Source: a virus
IMG/VR virus record: IMGVR_UViG_3300003690_003095
Coordinates: 1-20,127 of that record
Direction: 5' to 3' (one strand)
DNA: 20,127 nucleotides
Under the pieces are notes generated by a model. The model was given only the letters and a program-made list of their open reading frames with translations, was not told the DNA's origin and ran no database searches. Positions 6,320-15,920 of the stretch are shown here, piece after piece. Each line of letters opens with the position of its first letter. The first letter of the stretch is position 1. Made by a program: the position numbers and the translations under genes.

Positions 6320-7261
6320 ATGACCCAAGTCGTAAGTAACGACGTTAGTGCCATCACTCCTGAACTTTGGTCTTCGGTAGTTCAAAAGAACCTTTACAAA
6401 TCATTGGTTGCGTTGGACATTGGAAACACCCAGTTGTCTGATACTTTGAAGTTTGCGGACACAATTCATGTGCCATATTTTGCAAGCCTCTCAGCACAGA
6501 CATACACACCTGGAACTTCCTTGTCTGCAACAAACCTTGATTGGAAATTTGATAGCCTCGTAGTATCCGCATACAAACACTCTACCTTCTATGTTGATGA
6601 TGTAGAGTCTCTTCAGACAAATGTTGCTCAAATGCGACCATTGGCTGAAGATGCAGCGTTCCAATTGTCAAATGCAATTGACACTGATGTATTTAAGAAT
6701 CTTACGGGAGCAGACGGGTTCACTAACTATCAGGCTGATGCAGGAACACTTCAAGGGGGAACAGCACACAGACCTATTTCAGCAGGTTCTGCTGCTATCA
6801 TTCAGATTTTTGGAAACGCCAGAAAACTGTTGAGGCAGAATAATGTAGAAGAAATGGGAGACTGGGCTGCAGTTGTTACACCACAGATTGCTTTCTATAT
6901 TGAAGGAAAGGCCACATCTGTAGGATACAACCTTGCTGACGCTACCTTGAGAAATGGTTACACTGGTGATTTCATGGGATTTCAAGTGTATATTTCAAAC
7001 AACTTGCCTTCAGGCAAATGTTCTGCAATATCTCCCACGATTACTGGTGGAGCTGTATCGGCAACATCTTGTAAGTCAATCTACTTTGGAAGAAAGGGTA
7101 TGATTGATGTGGTGTTGCAAAGACGACCAGCATTGGAAATTCGCAAAAAAGATGATATGCTTGGTGCGAACTTCATTACCTGGACAGTCTATGGTTCAGC
7201 TGTGTTCACAAGAAATAGGAAGAGAGGACTAAACGTCGCAGTGCAATCTAGTTACTACTAA
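6320..7261 (+). CDS. Major capsid protein (HK97-like fold)
   Basis: The protein forms the icosahedral shell. The 313-residue length, the location after the scaffold gene and the sequence are those of environmental HK97-fold major capsid proteins. The N-terminal segment has ITPELWSSVVQKNLYKSLVA; a strand-rich E-loop-like region follows (DTIHVPYF...LDWKFDSLVVSAYKHSTFYVDD, residues about 49-95), then the spine helix region AEDAAFQLSNAIDTDVF. The C-terminal part, with VVTPQIAFYIEG and MGFQVYISNNLPSG, is typical of the A-domain, and the protein ends in YGSAVFTRNRKRGLNVAVQSSYY. A spot count of one 60-base line (6421-6480) gives 24 G+C, against 15 in a line of the cargo (12841-12900), so codon choice here is less AT-biased, consistent with a highly expressed gene. 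It ends in TAA, immediately followed by the structured element at 7263-7331. Confidence 0.85.
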   Translation: MTQVVSNDVSAITPELWSSVVQKNLYKSLVALDIGNTQLSDTLKFADTIHVPYFASLSAQTYTPGTSLSATNLDWKFDSLVVSAYKHSTFYVDDVESLQTNVAQMRPLAEDAAFQLSNAIDTDVFKNLTGADGFTNYQADAGTLQGGTAHRPISAGSAAIIQIFGNARKLLRQNNVEEMGDWAAVVTPQIAFYIEGKATSVGYNLADATLRNGYTGDFMGFQVYISNNLPSGKCSAISPTITGGAVSATSCKSIYFGRKGMIDVVLQRRPALEIRKKDDMLGANFITWTVYGSAVFTRNRKRGLNVAVQSSYY

Positions 7262-7262
7262 G

Positions 7263-7331
7263 ATTTGCCTGGATACTTAGCTTTTGTAGGCATTCTGCAA
7301 GAGCTAAGTCCAGAATGCCATTCAGGCAAAT
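7263..7331 (+). promoter_or_regulatory. Compact nested/crossed inverted-repeat element after the capsid gene
   Basis: Three sets of complementary arms lie in 69 bases. Outer stem: 7263-7274 with 7320-7331, 12 pairs with one G-U. Inner stem B: 7275-7286 with 7298-7309, 12 pairs with one G-U (8 perfect pairs 7275-7282/7302-7309). Stem C: GGCATTCTG (7289-7297) with CAGAATGCC (7311-7319), 9 perfect pairs. B and C cross, because the 5' arm of C is the loop of B and its 3' arm is the bulge between B and the outer stem. They therefore form either a pseudoknot/loop-bulge contact or two alternative folds. No T-tract follows, so it is not a standard terminator. Its role is unknown; it could stabilise capsid mRNA or control the cargo. 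Confidence 0.75.
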
Positions 7332-7338
7332 GCAGTTT

Positions 7339-7581
7339 ATGAAAATCTTTAAAAATTACATAAGAAAAGCTAATATCTTTAATCAAGATAGAAGAAAAAG
7401 GAAAGCTATAAATGATTTACTTAAAAAGTACAAATATGTACTTGAAGTAGATCATATTATGGAGTCTTGGATTACCAAGAGAATCCTGGAAGGACAACAG
7501 GGAAGGAGAAATGAGTTGCTGGAAAAGCAACAGGCAATAAAGGAGCAGGAATTATTCATTGAATATCTTGAAAAATTATGA
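7339..7581 (+). CDS. Small basic helical protein heading the cargo (80 aa)
   Basis: Not recognised. It is strongly basic and helical (YIRKANIFNQDRRKRKAIN...) with a likely coiled-coil C-terminal half (LLEKQQAIKEQELFIEYLEKL) and no membrane segment. Three in-frame ATGs exist (7315, 7330, 7339). The first two lie within the structured element, so 7339 is preferred; it also overlaps in ATGA fashion the stop of the frame that continues the capsid gene. The gene's own stop overlaps the following glycosyltransferase start (ATGA at 7578-7581), coupling the two. The position suggests either a last head gene or the first cargo gene. No SD motif is visible. Confidence 0.6.
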   Translation: MKIFKNYIRKANIFNQDRRKRKAINDLLKKYKYVLEVDHIMESWITKRILEGQQGRRNELLEKQQAIKEQELFIEYLEKL

Positions 7582-13060: not shown

Positions 13061-13685
13061 AAGAATAGAAGATTTAGAAATAGTACAGCAGGTCTTTGAT
13101 AAGCATAAAGCTCATTTCTTTGTAGGATATGGAGCCTTACTTGGCTGGTATAGAGATGGTATGTGGCTTCCTGGGGATGATGATATTGATATTGGCTGTA
13201 TTGAGCCTTTAGACTTAAAAACGAGAAAGTCAATAGGTTGGATGCTTTATGATTTAGGATTTAAGCCACAATCAATAGGGTTTAATGTCTTTGGGAGAAT
13301 GGAACCAGCTGAAATGGGATATAATGGAGATATGGATAGTGGCGTTATTGTTTGTGAAAAGAATATCAAATTTACTATATTCTTTTTTAATAAGGAGATG
13401 TGTAAGATTCATAAAGAAGAATATGTGTGTACGCCAAAACTGGGAGCACTGAAGCTAATAGCTACCCCAACAAAGTTCTATAAGAAGCTAGATAAGGTAA
13501 GTATAGGAAAGAAAGAATACTTAACTCCCAGTCCTATTGAGGATTATCTAAAGTTTTCTTATGAGGATTGGAAAGACCCTATGAAGAGAGATCATAGCAA
13601 AACTTTCTTTGAGGCTCACCCAGAACAAATAGAAATGATAAAAGATGTAGAGAAAAAAAATCAAGTAGTTCAATGGAAAAAATAA
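13053..13685 (+). CDS. LicD-family phosphotransferase
   Basis: LicD proteins transfer phosphocholine-type or related phospho-alcohol groups from CDP/CMP donors to glycans. Key motifs are present: VGYGALLGWYRDG (24-36), LPGDDDIDIGC (39-49; the metal-binding Asp cluster of the nucleotidyltransferase-like fold) and, near the end, PSPIEDYLKFSYEDWKDP (159-176), the conserved LicD C-terminal signature. The 210-residue length is near normal. It overlaps the HAD gene by 8 bases and the PEP mutase gene by 13. LicD relatives beside phosphonate genes are credible transferases of CMP-phosphonates to glycans, so here the predicted donor is the product of the cytidylyltransferase at 15911. This is inference from context; direct biochemical proof would be needed. 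Confidence 0.8.
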   Translation: MDKRIEDLEIVQQVFDKHKAHFFVGYGALLGWYRDGMWLPGDDDIDIGCIEPLDLKTRKSIGWMLYDLGFKPQSIGFNVFGRMEPAEMGYNGDMDSGVIVCEKNIKFTIFFFNKEMCKIHKEEYVCTPKLGALKLIATPTKFYKKLDKVSIGKKEYLTPSPIEDYLKFSYEDWKDPMKRDHSKTFFEAHPEQIEMIKDVEKKNQVVQWKK

Positions 13686-14425
13686 TTGCCTTAGAAGCAC
13701 ATAATGGGTTGAGTGCCTTATTAGTTGAGAAATCAAAGTTTGATGCCATTTGGGTATCTTCTCTTACTCAATCAACCTCAAAAGGATTGCCTGATAATGA
13801 GTTAGTTACATTAAATGAAAGACTAGATTTGGTACATGAAATAAGAAAGGTAGCCAAAAAACCTATCCTTGTTGATATAGATACTGGAGGAAACCTAGAA
13901 CATATACCTCACTTTATTAGAGCATTTAGAGATGCTGGAGTTTATGCTGTAGTTATTGAGGATAAAAAGTATCCCAAACAAAATAGTTTATTGAGTGATG
14001 GAAAGCATCAGTTAGAAGATGTAGATATATTTACAGAAAAGATACTCTTGGCAAAGAAAAACTCAGGAGAAATGAAGGTAATTGCACGTTTGGAGAGCTT
14101 GATAGCTAAACGATCTATGGAAGAAGCACTTATACGAGCTGTAGCTTACGTTGAAGCAAATGCTGATGTTATTCTTATTCATTCAAAGCAAAAGATAGAT
14201 GCTAGTGAAGTTATGGAGTTTGCCAAAAGATTTAGAAAGATGTTTACTCTTCCTTTAATGGCAATACCAAGTACATATACTTTGCCTAAGGATAATCCTT
14301 TTTCAATCATAGTATATGCAAATCAGATGATGAGAGCTTCTTTTGCTGCAATGAAACTATATTCTAGCCAAAAAGATGTAGATATAGCAGATGTAGAAGA
14401 GATATTTGAATTACTTGGACATTGA
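13673..14425 (+). CDS. pepM: Phosphoenolpyruvate phosphomutase (PEP mutase)
   Basis: This is the entry enzyme of C-P bond formation: it rearranges phosphoenolpyruvate to phosphonopyruvate. The diagnostic EDK-x5-NS loop is intact (EDKKYPKQNS, residues 96-105). Also present are EAHNGLS (8-14), IWVSSLT (26-32), VDIDTGG (67-73; Asp68 and Asp70 near the metal site), ARLES (138-142) and LIHSK (168-172). These set PepM apart from isocitrate lyase and methylisocitrate lyase relatives, which lack this loop. The 250-residue length is somewhat compact against 280-300 usual. The gene overlaps LicD upstream by 13 bases and the next gene by one base (TGATG), as part of one tightly coupled string. PEP mutase is a marker of phosphonate biosynthesis, so this call anchors the pathway. 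Confidence 0.93.
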   Translation: MEKIIALEAHNGLSALLVEKSKFDAIWVSSLTQSTSKGLPDNELVTLNERLDLVHEIRKVAKKPILVDIDTGGNLEHIPHFIRAFRDAGVYAVVIEDKKYPKQNSLLSDGKHQLEDVDIFTEKILLAKKNSGEMKVIARLESLIAKRSMEEALIRAVAYVEANADVILIHSKQKIDASEVMEFAKRFRKMFTLPLMAIPSTYTLPKDNPFSIIVYANQMMRASFAAMKLYSSQKDVDIADVEEIFELLGH

Positions 14426-14760
14426 TGATTTATGTAGGAGTGCCAGACAAGAAGTTAAATATCTGGTTGAAGGGGAAAGAATATATGATTTCTTCAGATG
14501 AAGGAGAAGCCATTGGGATTTGTGCAGGACTTTATTATGCAACAAAAGAAAGAGCTACTGCTTTTATGAATGCAGACGGATTCTTGAATGCTCTAAATCC
14601 TATTACTTCCTTTGTAATCCCCTATGACATAAAGATGAATATAGTAGTAAGCTATGGCAGAAAGGAACCTCAACATAAAGTAGCAACATATTTACTTCCC
14701 AAAATACTAAAATCTTTGAAATATGACTCAAAAAAGATTTCTTTCAAACTTATTAAGTAA
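14425..14760 (+). CDS. Phosphonopyruvate decarboxylase, N-terminal (PYR-domain) subunit
   Basis: The phosphonopyruvate decarboxylase reaction removes CO2 from phosphonopyruvate to give phosphonoacetaldehyde, pulling the unfavourable PepM reaction forward. This 111-aa part is the TPP pyrimidine-binding half: GVPDKKL (5-11), SSDEGEAIGICAG (23-35, with the TPP-activating Glu26), TAFMNADGFLNALNPITSF (45-63) and YGRKEPQHKV (77-86), corresponding to the family's 'GWRG....EPQH' turn. The start is ATG 14425 (TTG 14422 is in frame but overlaps the PEP mutase stop; TGATG overlap). The family's usual single chain is about 380 aa. The second half is the next gene in another frame, so the enzyme is split, as in sulfopyruvate decarboxylase ComD/ComE. 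Confidence 0.88.
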   Translation: MIYVGVPDKKLNIWLKGKEYMISSDEGEAIGICAGLYYATKERATAFMNADGFLNALNPITSFVIPYDIKMNIVVSYGRKEPQHKVATYLLPKILKSLKYDSKKISFKLIK

Positions 14761-15124
14761 GAATAAAAGAGCAGTAATTATAGGCTCTCTTGGGACTATC
14801 TCTTATGATTTAGCTGAAATTCCACATAAAAATAAGATACTTGTTAAGGGAGCAATGGGATGTGTCCTAGGGGTAGGACTAGGTTTTGCCTTAAAAACCA
14901 AGAAACAAGTATATGTTTTGATAGGAGATGGAGCATTATTGATGAAATTAGGCTCTTTGGCAACAATCAAGAAGTACAATCAACAAAACCTACATATTAT
15001 AGTTATGGATAATGGGAGACATGAAAGTACGGGAGGACAATTAACTAATTTTAGGGAGATAGAAAAGTATATTAAACCTTTGTGTGAGGTAGTAAAGGTC
15101 AATGAAATTCACGATAAGATATAA
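14723..15124 (+). CDS. Phosphonopyruvate decarboxylase, C-terminal (TPP-binding PP-domain) subunit
   Basis: This is the second half of the decarboxylase. The TPP/Mg2+-binding signature runs from GDGALLMKLGSLATI (68-82) to MDNGRHESTGGQ (95-106), the family's 'GDG...NNG.H.S.GGQ' element. KGAMGCVLGVGLGFAL (42-57) precedes it. The N-terminal 20 residues (MTQKRFLSNLLSKNKRAVII) match the helix that follows the interdomain linker in one-chain enzymes. It is in the +1 frame relative to its N-terminal partner and overlaps it by 38 bases, with its own ATG at 14723. No strong SD is visible. The two polypeptides together (about 244 aa) are far shorter than the usual 380, because the linker and parts of both domains are absent. 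An indel in the A-run at 14730-14735 could also produce the split. Confidence 0.88.
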   Translation: MTQKRFLSNLLSKNKRAVIIGSLGTISYDLAEIPHKNKILVKGAMGCVLGVGLGFALKTKKQVYVLIGDGALLMKLGSLATIKKYNQQNLHIIVMDNGRHESTGGQLTNFREIEKYIKPLCEVVKVNEIHDKI

Positions 15125-15920
15125 TGAGGTTCCTTCTAATCCAACCATTGAATTTGCAGATCAGATTCTTTTAGAGGCAAAGAAAGTAAATTGTACTGAA
15201 ATAGAGTCAATTGGAGGAGGTTCTACTATAGATGTAGGAAAGTATGTAGCATTTAAGCTAGACGTTCCGCATACAGCTATACCTACTACAGCTGGAACAG
15301 GAAGTGAGGTTACAAAGTTTGCAGTATTTGTTAAGGATGGAAAGAAAGTAAGTTTATCAGATGAAAGACTTATACCAAATAACTATATTTTAGATGCTTC
15401 CAGGGTTGTTGGACTAGATGCCTTACATACAGCAGCAAGCGGTTTAGATGCACTTTCACAAGGAATTGAGTCATATTGGGCAAAAAAAGCTACAAATGAT
15501 AGCAGATATTGGTCAAAGAAGGCAATACGATTAGCTTCAAAGAATCTTATAGATTCATATGATAATCCAAACAATGAGTATTTAAGATTAAGAATGCTAC
15601 AAGCTGCTAATTATTCTGGTAGAGCTATAAATATAGCTGGAACTTCAATTTGTCATGCTATCTCATATGCTTTAACCACAAGATATGAGATTCCTCATGG
15701 GATTGCTTGTGCTCATACATTGCCTTTCTTTATTGAATATTTTGATTTTAAGCTCATAGAAGCAAGAGTAGTAAGGAGGATAATAAAGAGAATAAAAGGT
15801 GATATACAAATAAAATATGATATAGATTTTGTGGCAAGAGAAGCTATGAAAGAAAAAAGGGCGACTAACACACCAAGAGTATTATCGTTAGAAACGGTAA
15901 AGAAAGCGTTATGGGGGTAA
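15102..15920 (+). CDS. Iron-containing alcohol dehydrogenase, probable phosphonoacetaldehyde reductase
   Basis: The likely role is NAD(P)H reduction of phosphonoacetaldehyde to 2-hydroxyethylphosphonate. Family signatures present: NPTIEFAD (13-20), IGGGSTIDVGKYVA (37-50), PTTAGTGSEVTKFAV (61-75), DALSQGIESYW (116-126), and metal-ligand histidines CHAISYALTT (His185) and IPHGIACAH (His199). It has 272 residues, against about 370-380 usual. The first 60 or so residues of the nucleotide-binding domain are gone, and the C-terminal helical domain is compacted but still ends in the family's 'NTPRVLSLETVKKAL'. The usual second ligand His of DALxH is Gln120 (DALSQ); this may be a feature of this reductase branch, and I cannot verify it. 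It overlaps the decarboxylase subunit by 23 bases. Confidence 0.8.
   Translation: MKFTIRYNEVPSNPTIEFADQILLEAKKVNCTEIESIGGGSTIDVGKYVAFKLDVPHTAIPTTAGTGSEVTKFAVFVKDGKKVSLSDERLIPNNYILDASRVVGLDALHTAASGLDALSQGIESYWAKKATNDSRYWSKKAIRLASKNLIDSYDNPNNEYLRLRMLQAANYSGRAINIAGTSICHAISYALTTRYEIPHGIACAHTLPFFIEYFDFKLIEARVVRRIIKRIKGDIQIKYDIDFVAREAMKEKRATNTPRVLSLETVKKALWG

Follow-up and report, generated by a model that had tools for sequence, protein, structure and literature searches.

Genomic context of the element

The sequence considered here (hereafter, the window) is a stretch of 20,127 nucleotides corresponding to positions 1 to 20,127 of the IMG/VR virus record IMGVR_UViG_3300003690_003095. The major capsid protein (MCP) gene lies at 6320-7261 on the plus strand, matches PHROG 267 (major head protein, E 1.8e-34), and ends in a TAA stop codon at 7259-7261. 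After a gap of one base (7262) comes a dense set of inverted repeats that occupies 7263-7331 of the same strand, and the first gene past it is a small conserved ORF of 80 amino acids (SORF, 7339-7581, plus strand), the gap from the MCP stop to the SORF ATG being 77 nt. The SORF start was placed at the ATG at 7339 by homology and not at 7315, which lies inside the repeats, and its end at 7581 overlaps the first ORF of the cargo, a glycan-modification block, at 7578. An initial annotation of this DNA had placed the element between the capsid gene and the cargo; the position after the capsid stop holds, while the next gene is this conserved ORF of ~80 amino acids, with the cargo following it.

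SORF and its homologues (alignment A2, 30 homologues) are small, basic proteins of ~75 amino acids that are predicted to form a two-helix hairpin (AlphaFold2 pLDDT 93.8). SORF had no match in Pfam or PHROG, and Foldseek returned only weak helical-hairpin matches, several of them to ribosomal protein uL29 and all with E > 1, from which we did not assign a function. Further downstream, the phage carries a phosphonate module at 13673-15920, with neighbouring genes to 17337; these include a PEP mutase, a phosphonopyruvate decarboxylase split across two ORFs (14422-14760 and 14723-15124), a PsrA-like Fe-alcohol dehydrogenase, a glycerol-3-phosphate-cytidylyltransferase-like protein, and a dTDP-glucose-dehydratase-like protein. 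Genes for NeuB (12060) and a NeuA-like protein (10874) adjoin the module. The gene content suggests that the window may encode a phosphonate- or sialic-acid-like surface decoration, with the proteins of the module and the Neu proteins scoring under the NCBIfam equivalog cut-offs.

Structure of the element

Direct reading and a repeat search reproduced, to the base, the three helices that had been proposed for 7263-7331. These helices, of 12, 12 and 9 bp, are arranged in the order P1-P2-PK-P2'-PK'-P1' and pair 66 of the 69 bases. The outer stem, P1, joins 7263-7274 (ATTTGCCTGGAT) to 7320-7331 (ATTCAGGCAAAT) through 12 pairs, one of them G-U, and its 3' strand ends 7 nt ahead of the start codon of the next ORF. 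P2 joins 7275-7286 (ACTTAGCTTTTG) to 7298-7309 (CAAGAGCTAAGT), again through 12 pairs with one G-U, and PK joins 7289-7297 (GGCATTCTG) to 7311-7319 (CAGAATGCC) through nine perfect pairs; the 3' strands of both helices were located by the repeat search. Loop L1 (TA, 7287-7288) is the sole unpaired run longer than 1 nt, linker L3 is a single C at 7310, and all remaining linkers have a length of zero. P1 and P2 without PK fold at -35.3 kcal/mol (z = -5.6), with 0 of 200 shuffles as low, and the helix score including PK is -54.9, whereas shuffles averaged -16.6 and went no lower than -30.3.

We found no second copy of the element within the window, and a pattern scan revealed neither a terminator-like nor a promoter-like site on the plus strand at the element. 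The GC-rich hairpin followed by a T-tract that marks a Rho-independent terminator is absent, the bases at 7332-7341 reading GCAGTTTATG, and the earlier judgement that this is not a classical terminator is therefore upheld.

Conservation and covariation among related phages

A search with the MCP yielded 61 related loci in viral contigs, and an MCP profile added further loci down to 43% identity; after removal of near-duplicates the set comprised 60 distinct contigs, the window included, with MCP identities of 43-81%. The DNA 3' of each MCP stop was run through a purpose-written solver for the order P1-P2-PK-P2'-PK'-P1', which uses stacking energies and short linkers. The enclosed crossed fold occurred at the same place in 51 of the 60 contigs. 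Six others (L009, L039, L040, L047, L108 and L115) have a re-wired variant that keeps the P2 x PK core and in which the 3' arm of the third helix lies between P2 and PK, apparently giving two kissing hairpins; this assignment was clear by computation for L009 and L047 and was made by eye for L039, L040, L108 and L115. A crossed fold of either form is thus present after the MCP stop in 57 of 60 contigs, and the remaining three (L054, L057 and L078) carry a plain long hairpin without a U-tract at this position. The counts include L029, in which a frame-shifted MCP match had hidden the fold (at -38.4), and L123 and L133, which have weaker versions of the fold.

Among these relatives, median helix lengths are 7 bp for P1, 12 for P2 and 8 for PK, and the median total length is 62.5 nt. 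The median linkers are 0 nt for both P1-P2 and P2'-PK' and 1 nt for PK'-P1', and the loops are similarly short (medians of 2.5 nt for L1 and 2 nt for L2). No conserved unpaired binding pocket was found among the relatives, in which loops measure 0-10 nt and differ in sequence between clades. One clade has an extra CCUC-NNN-GAGG hairpin within the P2 loop that competes with PK. Hairpins also follow the MCP in distant phages with unrelated downstream genes, namely Pelagibacter phage HTVC104P (L140) and Rhizobium phage RHph_TM3_14A (L141), with a T-run behind the hairpin in the latter. A near-identical PK strand (CAGAATGCC or CAGAATCTC) is shared by the window (7263-7331), L126 (3939-4002) and L139 (3912-3983), the capsid proteins of the latter two being only 43-50% identical to that of the window, hinting at exchange of the element or at convergence.

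The initial annotation had held that such complementarity was hardly due to chance and that it might form a pseudoknot, and had named covariation in related phages as a check; our controls bear out both points, the covariation check strongly so. A score of -33 or lower was reached by 53 of the 60 real contigs and by 2 of 3600 dinucleotide shuffles. Elsewhere in the same contigs (505 kb), this cut-off was reached by 26 of 19547 scanned segments on the plus strand and 33 of 19547 on the minus strand, which we take as the background; unlike these other sites, the MCP site passes in nearly all contigs. When the 5' and 3' halves of different relatives were combined into chimeras, the fold survived in 51 of 2450. 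Covariation was scored on MAFFT alignments made without any fitting to the structure. In the alignment of the window's own subfamily (A5: the window, L139, L126, L002 and L003), 92.3% of cells were paired, compared with 28.8-42.9% in slid registers, and both sides had changed in 17 of 33 pairs, with 0 of 500 shuffles as good. All three helices contributed (6 of 12 pairs in P1, 7 of 12 in P2 and 4 of 9 in PK), and within PK 100% of cells were paired. A second clade (A3) gave a similar picture, with 10 of 27 pairs changed on both sides (P2 7, PK 3) and again 0 of 500 shuffles as good. Compensatory changes therefore exceed those of both the shuffled and the slid controls, and the pairing persists while the sequence turns over almost entirely; the element is a conserved structured RNA and a candidate new family, and the crossing helices P2 and PK are both maintained by covariation.

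We used the balance of mismatch types as the only strand test, given that reverse-strand solver energies would be an unfair comparison with asymmetric linker limits. With both mismatch types allowed equally, the helices contain 132 G-T and 36 A-C combinations, an excess which indicates that selection acts on the mRNA strand. What is maintained on this strand, right after the MCP stop, is the pairing of an H-type pseudoknot (P2 x PK) held together by the outer stem P1. The fold also appears tied to this gene: two PK-strand motifs have 171 exact copies among viral contigs, of which three fold beside this MCP, all at known loci, and outside this MCP the fold was obtained once, at background level.

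Compatibility of the crossed helices

The near-absence of linkers raises the question of whether P2 and PK can form in one molecule, and the initial annotation had considered the three helices strained enough for alternative folds to be plausible. We examined this with a coarse three-dimensional bead model that treats the helices as rigid and A-form, caps the length of each linker and includes no energetics. In this model the complete window fold gave a moderate clash; the conflict disappeared upon opening ~4 of the 33 pairs (two basal pairs of P2 and two pairs of PK), and the best solutions have a crossing angle of roughly 70-100 degrees between P2 and PK. The modelled fold becomes impossible when P2 exceeds ~14 bp, in keeping with observed P2 lengths of 6-15 bp (median 12). 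A geometric optimum of P2 at 12 bp was considered and dropped, as the model shows an upper limit only. The strain is thus confirmed for the complete fold, whereas a pure two-state switch is not required, as the helices fit once a few pairs open. The six re-wired relatives, which change the third helix and keep P2 x PK, likewise point to P2 and PK as simultaneous, and their coexistence in one molecule appears plausible from the modelling.

Position of the element and translation context

To which neighbouring gene the element belongs can be considered from its spacing across relatives. Relative to the MCP stop, P1 begins at a median distance of 9.5 nt, with 40 of 50 cases at no more than 17 nt and extremes of -3 and 53 nt. 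On the other side, 26 of 48 cases have at most 5 nt between P1 and the SORF ATG and 18 of 48 have at least 13 nt; for the next ATG in general this distance spreads from -2 to 37 nt and reaches 77 nt in L105. In L060, an ORF resembling an HNH endonuclease (6783-7187; identified by eye, with no Pfam match) lies between the pseudoknot and SORF, and L105 has an HNH-like remnant, again identified by eye, in the corresponding place after 4014; in both, the element is still at the MCP stop. As the fold stays with the capsid gene despite these insertions, a capsid 3' end element fits better than a cargo leader, although it often also touches the next start codon. Two relatives have promoter sequences nearby. 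In L133 a perfect sigma-70 promoter (TTGACA-17-TATAAT) precedes the element, about 10-40 nt after the MCP stop, and in L042 a near-perfect one (TTGACT-17-TATAAT) lies between the element and SORF, downstream of the former; no promoter role was read from these, as they point in opposite directions and are too few for use.

Shine-Dalgarno motifs precede 44 of 413 ORFs in the phage contigs, compared with 66 of 413 in an in-gene control, and are thus not enriched; the same script applied to lambda found them in 8 of 17 ORFs versus 1 of 17 in the control. The leaders of the phage ORFs are instead A-rich, with about 50-60% A at positions -8 to -2. A pseudoknot that sequesters a Shine-Dalgarno motif was accordingly rejected, with no such motif near SORF in the window and the phage ORFs generally lacking one. 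GAGG is kept within PK, with an ATG 20-37 nt away, in L026, L028, L042 and L048; given the lack of Shine-Dalgarno use, the GAGG in some PK strands is not a hidden ribosome-binding site. Leaders of this kind resemble those of Bacteroidota, a likeness of leaders and not an identification of the host; in that group, structure and an A at -3 have been found to tune initiation in Flavobacterium (PMC6847099). We did not take the host from the sole genome match (L063), as this lies in a MAG of ~3 Mb that may be a mis-bin, and 58 related genomes do not contain the locus. With A-rich leaders and no Shine-Dalgarno use, initiation in these phages should depend in large part on structure.

Possible functions of the element

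The capsid gene is normally the most highly expressed late gene of a phage. The most likely explanation for our results, to which we assign a probability of about 0.5, is that the element is a stable, cis-acting barrier after the capsid stop that insulates capsid translation and mRNA from the downstream operon of the small ORF and glycan genes. Such a barrier would be mechanical and largely independent of sequence: a ribosome that has finished the MCP would meet a compact, knot-like RNA and would neither slide on to SORF nor reinitiate there, and the same knot would block 3'-to-5' exonucleases from entering the capsid message from behind. High capsid expression would thereby be insulated from the small-ORF/glycan operon, and the capsid mRNA would be protected. 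The element is free in sequence and its third helix can be re-wired, which would suit a barrier and would not suit a ligand pocket. Experiments in E. coli support stable structure placed directly behind a stop codon as an insulator against reinitiation (PMC7518266), and by analogy a pseudoknot would strengthen this insulation and hinder exonucleases. We infer ribosome insulation, mRNA protection or both, and place neither as dominant. An intergenic gap of about 20 nt nearly abolishes reinitiation in E. coli and Haloferax (PMC10666635), however, so a gap of 60-110 nt would insulate without a pseudoknot, and mRNA protection would then be the main benefit. This interpretation must be held with some caution, as a plain hairpin would seem sufficient for either role, and in about half of cases P1 touches the next start codon or comes within 5 nt of it, which speaks against a role purely at the capsid 3' end.

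The proximity to the start codon would be explained by a translational gate, in which P1 shuts the A-rich initiation region of SORF and is melted by the ribosome terminating at the MCP, such that one initiation passes and translation of the operon is tied to, and limited by, that of the capsid. The short distances on both sides of the element are consistent with this scenario, as is the A-rich composition of the conserved P1 3' strand (AAATAACT, AAATGACA), which matches that of the phage leaders. We nevertheless consider it unlikely, as the ATG lies at least 13 nt past P1 in more than a third of cases (and 77 nt past it in L105), another ORF intervenes in L060, and a gate formed by P1 leaves P2 x PK unexplained.

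Two further scenarios appear more improbable still. P2 and PK could be alternatives in a two-state switch or operator, with a protein (the capsid protein or the SORF product) or a metabolite selecting between them and regulating the cargo genes. The strain that near-zero linkers impose on the complete fold, the clade-specific hairpin that competes with PK, and the small, basic nature of SORF would all suit this reading, but everything fits once ~4 pairs are opened, P2 is within the tolerated length, the re-wired variants hold P2 and PK together, and the loops offer no conserved unpaired pocket and vary by clade. Alternatively, the element could be a site of RNase III-type cleavage, or an unusual terminator, that makes the 3' end of the capsid mRNA. 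P1 and P2 together do resemble a long stem with a 3' bulge, and the far relatives L140 and L141 have hairpins after the MCP, with a T-run in L141; neither the window nor the relatives inspected have a U-tract behind the element, however, the plus strand shows no terminator pattern, and a conserved PK would be needless for cleavage or termination. Finally, a DNA-level element (a cruciform, a recombination or packaging site, or a mobile repeat) would account for the inverted repeats and for the HNH-like ORFs inserted alongside them in L060 and L105, but the G-T excess reflects one-strand selection and largely excludes this reading, and the lack of a second copy in the window and of folding by PK-motif copies away from this MCP, bar the one at background, leaves it with very little probability.

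Regardless of which function applies, 60 divergent sequences with one architecture, together with re-wired and hairpin variants, constitute a clean natural series. This series allows one to ask why phages place structure after the capsid stop and what a pseudoknot offers over a hairpin, and it bears on operon insulation in bacteria whose translation does not rely on Shine-Dalgarno signals. The element could also serve as a portable insulator or mRNA-end part.

Comparison with known systems

None of the 4227 families of Rfam 15 matched above the gathering threshold in the window or in 16 related contigs, and a relaxed search of 7200-7400 gave only weak matches far below threshold. We did not find a description of this element in the open-licence literature. 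Pseudoknots in mRNA and structures after stop codons are already known; a fixed pseudoknot with near-zero linkers at the ends of capsid genes is apparently undescribed. In T7, RNase III hairpins and a terminator after gene 10 shape the level and stability of the capsid mRNA; these too are structures downstream of a capsid gene, but they are plain hairpins without conserved crossed pairing. Regulators built on H-type pseudoknots in mRNA include the SAM-II and preQ1 riboswitches and the leader pseudoknot of phage T4 gene 32. They share the fold type but lie in 5' leaders, preserve their contacts with a ligand or protein, and in most cases target a ribosome-binding site, whereas the element described here lies past a stop codon, is free in sequence, and occurs among phage genes without a Shine-Dalgarno signal.

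Readthrough pseudoknots of the retroviral gag-pol type (cf. PMC2194720) likewise lie a few bases past a stop codon. Readthrough or a hop into SORF was rejected, however: relatives such as L016 have a second in-frame stop at once, P1 includes the stop in L119, the spacing from the stop is variable (-3 to 53 nt), and the next ORF has its own ATG. Another parallel is the ribosome termination structure (RTS) of bacterial operons, a proposed translational insulator for the gene that follows where the intergenic gap exceeds 25 nt (PMC7518266). The element shares with RTS a stable mRNA structure directly past the stop codon (median 9.5 nt) and a gap to the next gene above this length (77 nt in the window); RTS, however, is a statistical class of local folding energy, and here we find one precise, covarying pseudoknot at one gene boundary. 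The element also recalls the compact knotted fold of flavivirus xrRNAs (PMC7603331, PMC7385498), which serves to resist a processive enzyme mechanically. The two differ in that xrRNAs resist 5'-to-3' decay by means of a ring around the 5' end, and the resistance of the element is only a proposal. A bolder view, which we regard as possible though rather doubtful, is that the element is the phage equivalent of an xrRNA: a sequence-independent barrier with a topologically crossed fold, close to fixation where the capsid message ends in a family of uncultivated phages without Shine-Dalgarno signals, and selected only for mechanical resistance to ribosomes, exonucleases or both.
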